Shown: positions 330 through 6,280 of the stretch, in pieces
Position numbering within the stretch: the stretch's first letter is position 1
Layout: each line of letters begins with the position of its first letter
Virus record (IMG/VR): IMGVR_UViG_3300045996_000589
Span: 1 to 20,820 of that record
Source: a virus
Direction: 5' to 3' (one strand)
Length of the DNA stretch: 20,820 bases
Program-made: the position numbers and the translations under genes
Notes under the pieces: model-generated
What the model was told of the DNA's origin: nothing
Databases searched by the model: none
The model's input: the letters and a program-made list of their open reading frames with translations, nothing else

Positions 330-1179
330 GTTTATTCCCCGCACCCGACTCGGAGATCGATATCTCGCACGTGAAGCATTTATTAAGGCACACGGCAGAG
401 CACCATCGAAGAATGGTGGATTCAACGACATGATCTACTACATCAAAACGGGTGAAGAGATCATGCACCCGCTCCGGCACCGCATCACTGATAAGGAATT
501 CGTGAAGGAGTACGTCAAGGACAAAGTCGGCGATCAGTACAATGTACCGACGATTGCTATTCTCAGGTCAGTCGAAGAACTCACCCGGTATACATTCCCG
601 GTCGATTGCGTCATCAAACCTACGCACCTATCTGGTCAGGTGATTTTCCGCCGCGATGGAAGCAGTGTCGATATGGCGAGAATGGTCGATTGGATGCGGA
701 CCAATTATTACCGATGGACGCGCGAAGTGAATTACCGGGATCTAGCGCCGAAGATCATCGTGGAGCCCTATATTTTTGGCAGGAAAGGCGTTGAGGATTA
801 CAAAATCCACTGCGTCCAAGGTGAGGCTCGGTTAATGTGGATTGACATAGGTCGACAAACCGATCACCGCCGAAATATATACACCACCGATTGGCAGCAG
901 ATCGATGCAGCGATTGCTCACGAAACCGGGGAGCATCGGGATCGACCGGCAAACCTAGAGGAAATGCTGGATGTGGCTAGCGCGTTGGCCGCTGACCTGA
1001 ACTATATCCGCGTCGATTTGTATTCAGACGGCAAAAACGTGTTGGTCGGCGAGCTGACCAACTGCAGTGACGACGCGCGAGGGATCTGGTACCGAGGTGA
1101 AAAGGTATTTACTGAAACGATGTTCGGCAAGAGGGGCATCCGTGAAGTACTGGACCAGCCTTCACGGGTCGAGCATTAG
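301..1179 (+). CDS. TupA-like ATP-grasp family protein
   Basis: A 292-residue protein resembling the TupA-like ATP-grasp family (ATPgrasp_TupA), whose members are often found in polysaccharide and teichuronopeptide loci. These enzymes form amide or similar bonds through an acyl-phosphate. Family-like marks in order are the N-terminal segment around HGRAPSKNGGFND (31-43), TDKEFVKEYV (63-71), a presumed ATP-binding lysine K106 in VIKPTHLSGQ, E155 in IIVEPYIFG, DYKIHCVQGEARL (166-178), and a C-terminal metal-binding pair in YIRVDLY (D239) and VGELTN (E251). AAAGGATC precedes the ATG by about 5 bases. The gene faces the late operon tail to tail with only 2 bases between them. A role as a lysogenic-conversion (surface modification) gene is inferred from position and family. 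The substrate is unknown. Confidence 0.75.
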   Translation: MSLINRIKYKFIPRTRLGDRYLAREAFIKAHGRAPSKNGGFNDMIYYIKTGEEIMHPLRHRITDKEFVKEYVKDKVGDQYNVPTIAILRSVEELTRYTFPVDCVIKPTHLSGQVIFRRDGSSVDMARMVDWMRTNYYRWTREVNYRDLAPKIIVEPYIFGRKGVEDYKIHCVQGEARLMWIDIGRQTDHRRNIYTTDWQQIDAAIAHETGEHRDRPANLEEMLDVASALAADLNYIRVDLYSDGKNVLVGELTNCSDDARGIWYRGEKVFTETMFGKRGIREVLDQPSRVEH

Positions 1180-1181
1180 CG

Positions 1182-1379
1182 TTAGCCGCCCGCTCGTTGC
1201 CGATCCGCTTCGGCTCTAGCTGCTTGCCGGATAGCCTTTCCCAGCCCGCCGAGTTCATCGATTTCCGCATCCGTTACGTCTCTGTTTTCAGACTGGGATA
1301 CGAGCATCAGGCGCTGATAGGCTTGGAGCTGCTGCAGGCCCTGCATAATCAGCTGGGCGATAATCAATGAATTGCTCAT
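1182..1379 (-). CDS. Small helical protein downstream of the lysis genes
   Basis: A 65-residue product, probably all helical: a glutamine- and leucine-rich first half (LIMQGLQQLQAYQRLML) and an alanine/arginine-rich tail. Its ATG overlaps the stop of the lipoprotein gene by 4 bases (ATGA), so the two are translationally coupled. It is the last gene of the minus-strand operon and meets the ATP-grasp gene tail to tail. There is no signal peptide, no clear membrane segment and no recognised family. Confidence 0.65.
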   Translation of the reverse strand: MSNSLIIAQLIMQGLQQLQAYQRLMLVSQSENRDVTDAEIDELGGLGKAIRQAARAEADRQRAGG

Positions 1380-1708
1380 TTGCGGCGCTCCAGTTCGGCG
1401 GTAAGGGCTGTAATGACATCCAGGACGAGCGTAAGCCTGTCCTGGGCATCCGCTGGGCTGGTGGGATAGATGGATCTGGCGAGATCAATGCCTCGCTGTG
1501 CGTCTTCCGTTCGGTCTATGTAGCGATCCGATTCGGCAGGCGTTATTTTGCGTGCTTGCAGAAGCGTGAGTACCGTTTGGCTTGCGGCATTGACGCTGGC
1601 CGTCGCTGCCGCGGCTCTTTGGTTGAACGTTTTTGGCGTCGGCACGCCGAGGGATGCGCAGCCGATCAGCAGCAGCGCGAGCAGAGGGGCAAGGGATAGC
1701 TTAAGCAT
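1376..1708 (-). CDS. Small lipoprotein of the lysis region
   Basis: A 110-residue protein with a bacterial lipoprotein signal: MLK, a hydrophobic run (LSLAPLLALLLIG) and a lipobox LLIG-C with the acylated cysteine at position 17. The mature part is alanine-rich and helical, with conserved-looking segments around PTPKTFNQRAAAA and TPAESDRYIDRTEDA. It should be anchored to a membrane and face the periplasm. A GGAG about 10 bases upstream provides the ribosome-binding site. The position after endolysin and holin suggests a lysis role, for example the outer-membrane spanin, but the proline-rich linker common in Rz1 proteins is not evident. The lipoprotein call is firm; a spanin function is only a possibility. 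Confidence 0.75.
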   Translation of the reverse strand: MLKLSLAPLLALLLIGCASLGVPTPKTFNQRAAAATASVNAASQTVLTLLQARKITPAESDRYIDRTEDAQRGIDLARSIYPTSPADAQDRLTLVLDVITALTAELERRK

Positions 1709-1820
1709 TGGGCTTGGTCTCCTGTAGATCAGTTTGCGGGATCGTTGTGGCGCTCACAGAGGTGGTGACGCGCGTATTGGGTTCCGGCGTCTCTTGGGTG
1801 CGAGTGCGGTTGAACCAAAA
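1701..1820 (-). pseudogene. Orphan C-terminal tail of a second holin gene
   Basis: Reading the minus strand from 1820 to TAA at 1701-1703 gives 39 residues starting FWFNRTRTQETPEPNTRVTT. They align without gaps with residues of the intact holin starting FLYLRARVDGVPDPATTTIK: both have F-x-[FY]-x-R-x-R, then P-[DE]-P, then a threonine-rich tail. The frame is open upstream only into the antisense of the HNH gene, with no credible start codon or membrane segment. Its stop overlaps the lipoprotein ATG by 8 bases, which is the kind of junction a functional upstream gene would have. I read it as the leftover 3' end of a related holin gene separated from its 5' part by the HNH gene. Confidence 0.55.
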
Positions 1821-1840
1821 TGCCTTAGTTTTCGGATATT
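1810..1840 (+). promoter_or_regulatory. Possible promoter for the HNH endonuclease gene
   Basis: TTGAAC at 1810-1815 and GATATT at 1835-1840 are separated by 19 bases, each with four of six consensus positions. The predicted start of transcription would fall at or just before the ATG at 1850, which fits the lack of a visible ribosome-binding site for that gene. This is a weak match only. Confidence 0.2.
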
Positions 1841-1849
1841 CTTGCACCC

Positions 1850-2386
1850 ATGGGAAGAAAAATAGAACGCATATGCAAGCACTGTGGCACCAAGTTTTTG
1901 GCGATCGTCAGCCAAGTGAACTTAGGCTTCGCAAAATTCTGCACTAAGTCGTGCCAAGTCAAAGAGCAACATAGGAACAGAACAAATAAAGCCGCCCGCA
2001 AAGCGGACAAGCATCACAACTGGAAGGGCGGCAGCACAGTCGACACAAAAGGATACCTACGCAGGCGATACGAATCGCATCCCAAAGTGTTCGTCATCGG
2101 CATGTATCGGCACGAGCATGTGACCGTGTGCGAAAACATTCTCGGCCGTTTTCTTCTGCCCAACGAGGTGGTTCACCACAAGGACGAGGTTCGCACTAAC
2201 AATCACCCAACTAACCTTTGTGTAATGACCAGGGGTGCGCACACAGCGCTTCACTGGAAGCTCCGGCGACTAAAGCGTGCCGGCCTCATTGAGGATTATC
2301 AGAATTTAGCTGCCGCAGTTCCGAGCGTGCTGGAACACTCTCCTGCTTCACCGAAGGTAGAGTCTCCGTCTCGGTCGTCTGCTTGA
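1850..2386 (+). CDS. HNH homing endonuclease
   Basis: A 178-residue free-standing HNH endonuclease. The N-terminus has a zinc-knuckle pattern (C9, C12, C31, C35). The middle has an HNH_3-like core: RHEHVTVCENILGRFLLP followed by EVVHHKDEVRTNNHPTNL, with the histidine pair H109-H110, asparagines N118 and N122, and H131/H135 in RGAHTALH. Such enzymes cut DNA at or near their insertion site and spread with their own gene. It lies on the strand opposite to the lysis genes, and its last 34 codons are antisense to the 3' end of the holin gene. No ribosome-binding site is visible upstream of the ATG. There is no sign of a group I intron or intein around it. The family call is firm; homing activity is inferred. 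Confidence 0.85.
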   Translation: MGRKIERICKHCGTKFLAIVSQVNLGFAKFCTKSCQVKEQHRNRTNKAARKADKHHNWKGGSTVDTKGYLRRRYESHPKVFVIGMYRHEHVTVCENILGRFLLPNEVVHHKDEVRTNNHPTNLCVMTRGAHTALHWKLRRLKRAGLIEDYQNLAAAVPSVLEHSPASPKVESPSRSSA

Positions 2387-2633
2387 TCGTCGTAGTTGCT
2401 GGATCTGGTACACCATCCACGCGCGCTCTCAGATAGAGAAATGCAAACAACAGCCCAAGAGCACCGCTCAGGCCAATGGCCAGGGTTTTACCCAGCTCAA
2501 TGAGGTTGTCAGGAATGCTCGGCTTGCCAATGAATAGCAGACAGAGGAAACCGAAGTATCCAATGATGAAGATCACCGCGATGGTGAACTGAAGGTATGC
2601 GGTGATGTAGCTCAAAGGCGCTCGTGATTTCAT
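2286..2633 (-). CDS. Holin, two transmembrane segments
   Basis: A 115-residue membrane protein with two hydrophobic segments (about ITAYLQFTIAVIFIIGYFGF and TLAIGLSGALGLLFAFLYL) and a polar threonine/glutamate-rich C-terminal tail. I chose the ATG at 2633 because AGAGGGA lies 6 bases upstream and the start overlaps the endolysin stop as ATGA; an upstream ATG at 2651 has no such site. Size, topology and position directly after the endolysin gene indicate a holin, which forms inner-membrane lesions so that the cytoplasmic lysozyme reaches the cell wall. The distal part of the tail is antisense to the HNH gene and may have been acquired or altered with that insertion. Confidence 0.75.
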   Translation of the reverse strand: MKSRAPLSYITAYLQFTIAVIFIIGYFGFLCLLFIGKPSIPDNLIELGKTLAIGLSGALGLLFAFLYLRARVDGVPDPATTTIKQTTETETLPSVKQESVPARSELRQLNSDNPQ

Positions 2634-3046
2634 AGCAATCCCTCTGGCCACTTGCCGGTTTTTATCATCCCGACAATTCGCGGTCCGCGACGGGTGACTT
2701 GGCGATACCAGAGAGAATCCATGAGTTCGTCGCCAGCCACGTCAAACGCATTCACTTTCATGGCAGAGGCGAAATTAACAAAGTGCGCGATCTTATTTCC
2801 CAGGTTGAAGCACAAATCGATCACGGCTGCTTGTCGAATTTCATCCAAGGAGCTGAACCATGGGAACTGCTCTGCAAGCGCAGTCGCCCTTCGGATATCG
2901 CTCTCTAGAAGATAAACAACCTCATCGTGAGATAGGCCAACATCCGTCAGATTGCGACCTACCCCTATGGTCAGCTTGCCAACCGTATCGACGTATGGCT
3001 TGTAGCTCACACCCTCATGGTCAATCAGAAGATCGCGGAGATTCAT
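2630..3046 (-). CDS. Endolysin, T4-type lysozyme (glycoside hydrolase 24)
   Basis: A 138-residue phage lysozyme that hydrolyses the glycan bond between N-acetylmuramic acid and N-acetylglucosamine. The catalytic triad of T4 lysozyme is present at the same numbers: E11 (DHEGVSYKPY), D20 and T26 (VDTVGKLTIGVGRN). The family motif CFNLG follows the middle region, and the C-terminus carries the typical RRGPRI segment. There is no signal peptide or signal-anchor segment, so it should accumulate in the cytoplasm and depend on the holin. Its start overlaps the upstream gene by 4 bases and its stop overlaps the holin start by 4 bases, so the cassette is translationally coupled. Confidence 0.93.
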   Translation of the reverse strand: MNLRDLLIDHEGVSYKPYVDTVGKLTIGVGRNLTDVGLSHDEVVYLLESDIRRATALAEQFPWFSSLDEIRQAAVIDLCFNLGNKIAHFVNFASAMKVNAFDVAGDELMDSLWYRQVTRRGPRIVGMIKTGKWPEGLL

Positions 3047-3372
3047 TTAGGCGGACGCTCCAGCATCTTGCGAATAAAGGCGATAATCTCGGTGTGCCAC
3101 TCAGCTAGCCTGTGAGTAACGCTGTCCAAGATTTCGTGGCGCATATCGCGAAGTTTGGCGACTTCGGCCTCTAGCGTTTCCATCTTGGTTTCTTGGCGAA
3201 CGATGCGCTCATGCATTCTGTTATCGTCCTTGATGTGCTGGGCAAAATGCGCTTCATTGCTATCGGTACGAGCGTCCTGTCGATCATCACGCGCGCGGCT
3301 AGTGAGATAGATAACCCCGATCAGACTGCATACGATGGAAATCGAAAGGCCAATGATCCATTCAATGCTCAT
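3043..3372 (-). CDS. Single-TM coiled-coil protein, possible inner-membrane spanin
   Basis: A 109-residue protein with an N-terminal membrane anchor (MSIEWIIGLSISIVCSLIGV) followed by a long charged helix with a heptad-like stretch (about ETKMETLEAEVAKLRDMRHE). This is the architecture of an i-spanin (Rz-like) or of small XhlA-type lysis accessory proteins. The stop overlaps the endolysin ATG by 4 bases, supporting a lysis role. I cannot assign it to a family; the architecture is seen and the function inferred. Confidence 0.65.
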   Translation of the reverse strand: MSIEWIIGLSISIVCSLIGVIYLTSRARDDRQDARTDSNEAHFAQHIKDDNRMHERIVRQETKMETLEAEVAKLRDMRHEILDSVTHRLAEWHTEIIAFIRKMLERPPK

Positions 3373-3387
3373 TGCGTTTAGTGATCA

Positions 3388-3558
3388 TCAATCCTCGTGA
3401 TCAGCTTCCAGGCGCTTGTATGCCTTGCGAACCAACTCACCGACCTGCTGTGGCGTTGAGCCATGCGGCACGGGTAGTTCGTATTCGTATGACGCTTCCG
3501 CCAGAAGCGCATCCGCCATTGCTGAGCGCTTGAGGATAATAGTGATATGAGACATCAT
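3388..3558 (-). CDS. Small conserved-looking protein, 56 residues
   Basis: A short gene with a good AGGAGAG ribosome-binding site just before ATGATG at 3558-3553 and a TGA at 3390-3388. The product has a helical first half (RSAMADALLAEASYEYE), a PHGSTPQQVGE turn and a basic helix (LVRKAYKRLEADHED). It is soluble, without a signal peptide. It fills the otherwise empty space between two membrane-protein genes in the same orientation. No family is recognised. Confidence 0.6.
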   Translation of the reverse strand: MMSHITIILKRSAMADALLAEASYEYELPVPHGSTPQQVGELVRKAYKRLEADHED

Positions 3559-3563
3559 CTCTC

Positions 3564-3989
3564 CTAGTGATCGGAAATCGGGATACCTTTCTTCGCAAGC
3601 TCAACTTTCAAATCGTTCCAGCGCTCTTGAGTGACGCGATTCTCGCGCTCCACGATTGAAAACTTGTCCGACAGCTCCGCGAAGCGCGCATTCGCTTGAT
3701 CGCGCATGTCCTCTGCGCGCTTCTCGGCGGCATCCGCTCTGTCATGTGCCGACTTCGAAATAAGCAACGCCGTAACCGATGCGGCAATTGCCAGAGACAT
3801 GATTGCCACTACCCATGCGGCGACCTTACCGACGCTTTTGTCGATAGTCAGCGTCAGGCTGATAGGCCCTTTCTGCTCGCTCAAGAGTGGTAACGCGACT
3901 ATCGAGTCCCCTGAGTTCTGTGTCGTGCCTGGAGTCTGCGTTGTCGTGCCGGGCGTCTGAGGATTCGAATCTTGTGACGTCTCGGTCAT
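3564..3989 (-). CDS. Membrane protein with internal TM and coiled-coil tail
   Basis: A 141-residue protein with three parts: a low-complexity Thr/Pro/Gln N-terminus (SQDSNPQTPGTTTQTPGTT), one membrane segment around residues 55-80 (VAAWVVAIMSLAIAASVTAL) and an alanine/glutamate/arginine-rich coiled coil. GGGGGAA lies 6 bases upstream of the ATG. The first 164 bases overlap the 3' part of the preceding gene in a different frame. The repetitive N-terminus is what one would expect of sequence constrained by, or created over, another reading frame. Its role is unknown; the position between tailspike and endolysin suggests lysis or membrane attachment. Confidence 0.65.
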   Translation of the reverse strand: MTETSQDSNPQTPGTTTQTPGTTQNSGDSIVALPLLSEQKGPISLTLTIDKSVGKVAAWVVAIMSLAIAASVTALLISKSAHDRADAAEKRAEDMRDQANARFAELSDKFSIVERENRVTQERWNDLKVELAKKGIPISDH

Positions 3990-4213: not shown

Positions 4214-6280
4214 TTAAAAGAGCTTGGTGCCAGAAAGATCAGTCCCAGCAAACACGGTGTCGCCATCTGACCCGGAGTTCGTCACCATGTTGTCCCCGCC
4301 GGTCGCGTACGATCCACCGGCAACCGTCTGTATTCCGCCTTTACAGTTATCGATCTGATTCGCGGATATCAATGTGTTGGTGCCTGCCGAACGCACACCC
4401 CGACCACTGGCCTGGCTAAATCCTCGGACCCTGTTTGACACAACCTGAGTGCCATCAGCCGTTGATGCGATTGCTATGCCATAGCTACCGCCAGTTGATC
4501 CAGTACCGTCTGCCTCAACATCGTTGCACACGATTTGGCAATTATCCGCTTCGACGCTGACGGTAGGGTCTGTTGTCCCTTTCATACGCAGAGTGACACC
4601 CTTGCACGAGGCCCCATCCGCTCCAGTGGCGAGAATGACTTTGTTCGCAGCGCCCCCGCTGACCTTCGCGCCTTTTAAGTTGGCGACCTCAATGGTGCCA
4701 TCGACGTCACAGCCATCGATTTCAAGCGATACTGAAGTGCTAGCTAGCCCCGCGCACAGAATCGATCTATCCGTCGCACCGCGACCGCAGATTGATACTC
4801 GTTGGCCAGTTACCGCTGGGTATGCCTTAAAATTCTGTGCGAATCCCGTGACGGTTGCGCGTATTTCCCCTGGATAGAACGATCCGTCCACACCAGGCTC
4901 AATGTTGATGCCCGCATTTGGGTTAGTGCCAGTCTCATCAATGACGTGAGCCCCTAAGATATGGACCTCAGTTCCAAGCGCCACCCCGTTTAAGTGGATG
5001 CCGTTGCCGATATTTGAATAAGCACGGTACGTGCCTCCGCTAATCTTGATGCGACCGGCGCCGTCCGTGATACGAAGCACCCCGCCTAAATTGGTATTGC
5101 CGTGTGCTCCGCGCACATCAACGCCGTGAAGTTCGGCAGTCTCGGTAACGTTCGTGAGCAGAATCCCACCGGAGAATTCATCGCCGTTAGTAATCCAGTA
5201 TTTCCCTCCCCAGAAATAGACTCGCTTCGCATATCGAATAGAGGGGTAAACTGCCGCGACACAATCCCGAAGCACCACCAAGTCACTGCTATTTCCAGCT
5301 CCGTCCGTATTCGTGTGAATGTAGTACGTACCGCCACTGTCTTTCTGCACGAATCCATCCACAATCACGGATAGGCATGCCTGGTAGTAGCCAACGACAC
5401 CATTTCCATCCGTTAGCGTGTTGTCGGCCGAACCACCTGTAATACGCACCTGACGAACCCATTTGGCCTGCGCCATTCCTGACATGCCATCAATGTGAAC
5501 ATTATTCAGGGTGACCGATTTTCCCCAGGTTCCGTATGCGCTGCCCGCTGCACCTACTACGTAACCGTACAGCTCACTGTCGCCGCCAACAGTGCGCGTT
5601 CCAATAACATTCAGATTTTCAATCGTGATGCCACCAGTTCCGCAGCTGAACAAGTTCTGGTTTGCGCTGGGTACTGCAAACTTTATCGTCGCGCCATTGC
5701 CGCGAATGGTAAGTCGCTTATTTCCCGTCGAGAGCTGGGCGGTAAGGTAATAGAATTCGTTAGCTGCTGTTTGTGGCAACTCAATGCACCCACCATCAGG
5801 CGCGACAGAAATGGCGTCTTGGAAAGCTGTTTGACTGGATGTCGATCCTGAGGTTGCTACCGCACCGTAGCGGCGCACGTTGCCGTAGTCAGTGACATCG
5901 ACGGTAAAATCGACTGGATCAACCGCATTGAATTCCTCCGCATCAGTGCGCTTGTACGAGTCACTATCAGCTAAATATTCATTGAACCTGGATTGCGACA
6001 AGGCCGCTTGGAGAAGCGGATCAACCGTCCCACCTGGAAGCGTCACATCATCTGCAGTAGTTTCGATTTTCTTGTATGTGACTACAGGATCAAGATAAAT
6101 TGGCGGGTAGAACCCCGCAGAATTCGACCGAACCGGCTGCGTGTGCTCGTTTTCCAGCTCTGCATCAATGTAAACTGGTGCCGGATCGCTAGTCCCTGTG
6201 ACATAAAACGCCAGCTTAGCGTTGACCACGGGATCGCCATTGCTATCAACAGCGCGAGATCTTCCGGGGTAATACAGCAT
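4214..6280 (-). CDS. Tailspike protein with right-handed beta-helix
   Basis: A 688-residue receptor-binding protein. Residues 1 to about 80 match the virion-attachment module common in tailspikes: GDPVVNAKLAFYVTGTSDPA, then PVRSNSAGFYPPIYLDP and a following TYKK. After a linker the pectate-lyase-like entry motif appears (DYGNVRRYGAVATSGSTSSQ), then a long run of short beta-strand repeats typical of a right-handed parallel beta-helix (for example ITIENLNVIGTRTV). Such spikes bind and usually cleave surface polysaccharide such as O-antigen or capsule. GAGGTC lies about 6 bases upstream of the ATG. A terminator-like hairpin is only about 24 bases upstream, so its level may be set separately from the ejection genes. 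The polysaccharide target cannot be read from sequence. Confidence 0.88.
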   Translation of the reverse strand: MLYYPGRSRAVDSNGDPVVNAKLAFYVTGTSDPAPVYIDAELENEHTQPVRSNSAGFYPPIYLDPVVTYKKIETTADDVTLPGGTVDPLLQAALSQSRFNEYLADSDSYKRTDAEEFNAVDPVDFTVDVTDYGNVRRYGAVATSGSTSSQTAFQDAISVAPDGGCIELPQTAANEFYYLTAQLSTGNKRLTIRGNGATIKFAVPSANQNLFSCGTGGITIENLNVIGTRTVGGDSELYGYVVGAAGSAYGTWGKSVTLNNVHIDGMSGMAQAKWVRQVRITGGSADNTLTDGNGVVGYYQACLSVIVDGFVQKDSGGTYYIHTNTDGAGNSSDLVVLRDCVAAVYPSIRYAKRVYFWGGKYWITNGDEFSGGILLTNVTETAELHGVDVRGAHGNTNLGGVLRITDGAGRIKISGGTYRAYSNIGNGIHLNGVALGTEVHILGAHVIDETGTNPNAGINIEPGVDGSFYPGEIRATVTGFAQNFKAYPAVTGQRVSICGRGATDRSILCAGLASTSVSLEIDGCDVDGTIEVANLKGAKVSGGAANKVILATGADGASCKGVTLRMKGTTDPTVSVEADNCQIVCNDVEADGTGSTGGSYGIAIASTADGTQVVSNRVRGFSQASGRGVRSAGTNTLISANQIDNCKGGIQTVAGGSYATGGDNMVTNSGSDGDTVFAGTDLSGTKLF

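Follow-up and report, generated by a model that had tools for sequence, protein, structure and literature searches.

Organisation of the lysis cassette

The window, i.e., the whole stretch of DNA analysed here, is a metagenome-derived virus contig of 20,820 bases from IMG/VR. Its major capsid protein shares about 41% identity with its counterparts in the Pseudanabaena phages Pam5 and Pan3. In minus-strand order, a tail-spike-like gene is followed by several short open reading frames (ORFs), some with a hydrophobic segment, then by the endolysin gene and the holin-like gene. Continuing leftward, an HNH endonuclease gene is located on the plus strand, and after it, again on the minus strand, come a holin-like gene fragment (tail B), a lipoprotein gene and a gene for 65 amino acids (Table 1). 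The endolysin of the window is 40% identical to the one encoded upstream of the holin in L002, one of the contigs with a related holin.

Upstream of the endolysin gene, at 3388–3989 (−), short ORFs were observed that code for a membrane plus coiled-coil protein and then for a small protein starting with MSH. Look-alikes were seen by eye in the same order at 4435–5153 of L002, which suggests a conserved layout of the lysis region. Just past the lysis genes, on the opposite strand, lies a TupA-like ATP-grasp gene (301–1179, +; PF14305, 4.8e-40), which had no convincing PHROG match (best E 0.03) and thus looks like unusual phage cargo.

Table 1. Predicted features of the lysis region, with positions in the window and the evidence for each
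Feature	Position	Strand	Evidence
65-amino acid gene, following the lipoprotein gene in relatives	1182–1379	−	similar short ORFs at the same place in L003, L004 and L007, by eye
Small lipoprotein gene, following the holin in relatives	1376–1708	−	27–41% identical to the post-holin gene in L003, L004 and L007
Tail B, putative C-terminal remnant of a second holin allele, left stranded	1701–1823	−	profile search, position compared with relatives, identity counts
AGGAG, ribosome-binding-site-like, for the lipoprotein gene, within tail B	1719–1723	−	direct reading; 10 nt ahead of the ATG at 1708
HNH endonuclease gene, strand opposite to the lysis genes	1850–2386	+	PF13392 1.8e-8; phrog_20891 2.9e-19
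Extra ~18 holin residues, SVPARSELRQLNSDNPQ	2286–2340	−	DNA on the HNH side; antisense to HNH residues ~146–163
Tail A, part of the intact holin's C-terminal tail that resembles the family	2340–2438	−	27/30 residues identical to L002
Intact holin-like gene, 115 amino acids, two hydrophobic segments and a polar Thr-rich tail	2286–2633	−	56–76% identity to L002–L007 over the alignment
Endolysin (phage lysozyme), upstream partner of the holin	2630–3046	−	Pfam Phage_lysozyme 3.3e-8; phrog_7 endolysin 8e-14

The holin-like gene and its family

Searches of viral contigs with the single protein, with an alignment and with a pattern all retrieved the same six relatives of the window holin (L002–L007). 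The protein had no match in Pfam and only a chance-level match in PHROG, and by this test it does not belong to a described holin family. No match was obtained in 50,697 phage records, and the family was found neither in isolate phages nor in prokaryote genomes; five pattern matches in prokaryote genomes look unrelated and were discarded.

Two hydropathy peaks are present in the window holin at about residues 7–40 and 46–69, and in the window as well as in five of the six relatives (L002, L003, L004, L005 and L007) the gene adjoins a predicted lytic-enzyme-like gene. It thus codes for a small protein with at least one membrane segment that is encoded together with an endolysin, as is usual for holins. 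The two hydrophobic segments and the lytic-enzyme neighbour support the name 'holin' for the predicted protein, and the presence of two membrane segments presumably corresponds to a class II-like label. By eye, the constant holin-like family stands beside seemingly different lytic enzyme classes (L002, L003, L004, L005 and L007, at approximately 5000–6000), a pattern that would fit modular exchange of endolysins.

The holin ORF is intact, i.e., the upstream C-terminus is in phase with the body of the gene. Its DNA alignment with L002 ends near 2340, where the L002 holin stops about two codons past the matching point, whereas the window holin continues for ~18 residues opposite HNH codons. These last ~18 residues had no match to L002 and are the part of the present C-terminus that can be pointed to as not derived from a holin. 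A sequence-only reading of the window had proposed that the C-terminus of the present holin might be foreign; the tail is family-like down to ~2340, but the remainder overlaps the 3' end of the HNH gene.

The HNH gene and its junctions

The HNH ORF codes for a CxxC zinc-ribbon-like N-terminus and an HNH_3 domain, and its nuclease motif is intact (HHKD...NN..N...H present; PF13392 above cut-off). As had been read from the sequence before, it lies between two holin tails and on the opposite strand. The gene is absent at the same place in L002, L003, L004 and L007, a presence–absence pattern expected of a free-standing homing endonuclease; HNH_3 genes in the relatives' contigs lie far from the lysis genes. 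Proteins related to the HNH protein are encoded at other genomic places, and their identity to it is 58% at most, over short stretches. Many of them end within ~17 residues after the nuclease domain and others have long extra parts, so that the original end of the HNH gene can be given only approximately.

On its right side, the HNH gene runs into the holin: residues past ~163 are antisense to tail A, and the last ~15 codons are clearly antisense holin DNA. The gene fills its gap tightly, as the homology of tail B, whose family-like residues start at 1823 (AFWFNRTR), ends 26 bp before the HNH ATG (1850) and holin DNA resumes near 2340 within the HNH frame. A G+C boundary at the HNH gene was also considered and was dropped because gene-to-gene scatter is equally large across the window.

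The window is metagenome-derived and known here as an assembly alone, and a chimeric assembly of two phages might be put forward for this arrangement. This is very improbable, as no repeat between the two sides was found to be both long and similar enough to mislead an assembler (direct repeats within 1150–3400 are imperfect and at most 26 nt long) and the gene order on either side of the HNH gene matches the cassette of the relatives.

A second holin tail beyond the HNH gene

The open frame of tail B extends over 1847–1701 (−). Within it, the translation of minus-strand 1823–1701, AFWFNRTRTQETPEPNT..., corresponds to the final part of membrane helix 2 and to the Thr-rich tail in the holin-like family. 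The fragment had earlier been placed at 1820–1701; this place was right, but the family-like residues begin one residue earlier, at 1823.

A position-specific matrix made from the six relatives only was applied to the window and the retrieved loci in all six frames (353,716 positions). The 16-mer FWFNRTRTQETPEPNT of the fragment reached 23.05 bits, compared with 36.6–52.3 for the seven true family tails and 13.0 for the best unrelated 16-mer. The fragment thus ranked eighth, directly after the seven true tails, and was the best non-holin match of the scan, which answers the earlier call for a measure of significance against the holin family. In 200,000 shuffles of its letters, this score was never reached. 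Over 21 residues, the gap was similar (26.3 versus 12.0 for the next), whereas over the first 12 residues alone the fragment was marginal (14.6 versus 14.0 for the next best). As these 12 residues are near background, the signal comes from the stretch as a whole, through to PEPNT.

The marginal score of the first 12 residues might suggest that the resemblance arose by chance or by convergence of a Thr/Pro-rich frame. Such an origin is exceedingly improbable, given that the fragment stands 10 bits above the best of the other positions across 16 residues, that no shuffle equalled it, and that it occurs in exactly the expected frame and place. The similarity, far above chance, confirms tail B as a predicted holin-family tail, as the sequence-only reading had claimed. 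In viral contigs and phages, no relatives of this type of tail were found.

Tail B still overlaps the lipoprotein gene, by 8 nt at its start (1708), and contains its ribosome-binding site. The protein of tail B is presumably no longer needed, and the end of the fragment still supplies this predicted site to the lipoprotein gene.

The two tails as two alleles

Over 17 compared residues, tail B is identical to L005 at 10, to L007 at 9 and to the tail of the window holin at 7, and the corresponding DNA identities are 31, 30 and 22 out of 51. It is divergent overall, with 6–10 of 17 residues identical to other tails compared with 12–16 of 17 among those tails themselves. Given its greater likeness to L005 and L007 than to the window's own holin, tail B would represent another allele and not a recent copy. 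A recent duplication of the window's own tail was rejected, as the fragment is least like this tail at the DNA level. Tail A tends to L002 and tail B to L005 and L007, with no close relative covering the region. The HNH ORF is flanked by two diverged versions of one gene's C-terminus, as in the hybrid genes of mitochondria.

The same locus in relatives without the HNH gene

In four relatives (L002, L003, L004 and L007), a single holin gene runs straight into a small lipoprotein gene with no HNH gene between them. The holin gene of L003, L004 and L007 overlaps the start of the lipoprotein gene, and a short ORF like the 65-amino acid gene of the window follows. In L002, the holin (ending LPSVPKHEETP) and a lipoprotein-like start overlap at ATGA, shortly before the contig ends. 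In L005 and L006, the holin is followed by other genes. The overlap of tail B with the lipoprotein gene is the same joint as in the HNH-free relatives, and the proposal that the fragment retains a holin-type junction was borne out. As a single protein, the window lipoprotein had no match in viral contigs, nor in phages. Contigs with relatives of the endolysin (L008–L015) were set aside because they have a different gene order and no such holin adjoining.

Two adjacent holins of the family in an ancestor, the second of which lost its body through HNH insertion or deletion while its tail stayed, could also explain the difference between the two tails and the lipoprotein junction retained by tail B. 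This history is improbable, because each of the six relatives has one family match and four of them join the holin directly to the lipoprotein gene. Two holins of the family, which would come close to the case that the sequence-only reading had named as evidence against its own proposal, were found in none of the six.

Probable recombination between two holin alleles

We consider it rather likely that the HNH gene entered the lysis cassette between the holin and the lipoprotein gene via recombination of two diverged holin alleles. As a free-standing gene, it would have cut in or near a holin gene; the break would then have been repaired from a donor that carried the HNH gene, with homology limited to one side. 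On the right side, homologous exchange would have taken place within the holin gene or upstream of it, and on the left side the incoming DNA would have been attached at a joint with no long homology, at most a few bases from the AF/WFNR codons. The last ~40 codons of the other allele would then have been left as tail B between the HNH gene and the lipoprotein gene, and the phage would have kept one complete holin, the last ~18 residues of which are encoded opposite the HNH 3' end. In this course of events, the HNH protein as the agent, double-strand-break repair and the direction of transfer are the parts that we infer. In T4, co-conversion of flanking sequence goes along with endonuclease-driven homing, which takes the route of illegitimate joining at microhomologies when only one side is homologous (PMC2988022). 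By analogy, a similar one-sided event between two holin alleles would give the observed anatomy.

Recombination is favoured by the fact that tail B is a family tail at the very joint of holin and lipoprotein gene that four HNH-free relatives have. The earlier proposal of recombination between two related holin genes is partly supported, in that the tails are different alleles and the fragment stands where the single holin gene of HNH-free relatives ends. It had been predicted that HNH-free relatives would have a single holin at this joint, which four do, and that its tail would be like the fragment; such a tail joined to a body was not found among the relatives searched. Also against recombination, the closest phages by major capsid protein (77–96% identical to that of the window, L060–L065) are short virus contigs without lysis genes, and in the contigs of L060–L070, near by the same protein, no match to holin, lipoprotein or endolysin was obtained. 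The divergence of tail B fits relaxed evolution after stranding and an already distant allele alike.

As a special case of recombination between alleles, the tail alone might have been exchanged. A cassette of tail A and the HNH gene would have integrated into a resident holin gene at the AF codons, providing an in-frame replacement for the C-terminus and shifting the native tail (tail B) downstream. Here, identity to L002 is relevant, which amounts to 90% in tail A and to 72% (47/65) in the body. This excess of tail over body is the largest among 21 pairs and hints at a separate history of the tail, but with a Fisher p of 0.065 and with saturated synonymous (fourfold) sites. Due to this saturation, the events might be old, or the known relatives might be too distant for dating. 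The two tails start at roughly corresponding residues, and the order of body, inserted C-terminus, endonuclease and displaced native C-terminus is the same as in the fungal case (PMC3630166). However, neither a donor nor an HNH-free sister is known, and the fungal cases described are in phase, whereas the HNH gene and the holin gene are on opposite strands. Exchange of the tail alone is therefore a tentative reading.

Comparison with known systems

The window holin shares with two-segment phage holins the small membrane protein, the polar tail and the position of the gene next to the endolysin; it differs in that it is predicted from sequence and matches no described Pfam or PHROG family.

HNH endonucleases of lactococcal Skunavirus phages are encoded by many genes at varied insertion places and were proposed as drivers of phage diversity (PMC12724721). 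These are different phages and different HNH families from those of the window. The free-standing homing endonucleases Seg and Mob of T4-like phages are closer, as an HNH or GIY-YIG gene lies between phage genes and flanking genes are co-converted, with illegitimate one-sided repair described for T4 intron homing (PMC2988022). For Seg and Mob, cleavage and marker exclusion were demonstrated, whereas the HNH gene of the window is known from its sequence alone. Unlike in the window, a stranded second C-terminus is not described for them in the passages of this source that were covered (PMC2988022).

The literature covered, mostly as titles and abstracts and with subscription papers largely outside, contained no hybrid of an endonuclease and a C-terminus from a phage. 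In fungal mitochondria, mobile endonuclease ORFs bring along a foreign C-terminus, by which the native one is displaced, as reported for atp6 of Allomyces, atp9 of Rhizopus, cox2 of Mortierella and atp6, atp9, cox2 and nad3 of Glomus sp. (PMC3630166). The window shares with these hybrids the gene body, the in-phase C-terminus, the endonuclease ORF and a second, diverged C-terminus downstream (PMC3630166). It differs in that the target is a phage lysis gene, the endonuclease is of the HNH and not of the LAGLIDADG or GIY-YIG type, and the endonuclease gene is on the opposite strand.

With the entry of the endonuclease, the C-terminus of the holin would have been remodelled, and one sequence would record how a selfish gene got into a tightly packed, overlapping lysis cassette and left a working gene behind. 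A phage version of the mitochondrial tail-replacing element, in which the HNH gene moves together with a substitute C-terminus for the gene that it targets, is conceivable but doubtful. If it were true, the HNH gene could insert within the coding sequence of a lysis gene and still spare that gene, phages would share a strategy known from fungal mitochondria, and homing genes would have a route to drive holin diversity.
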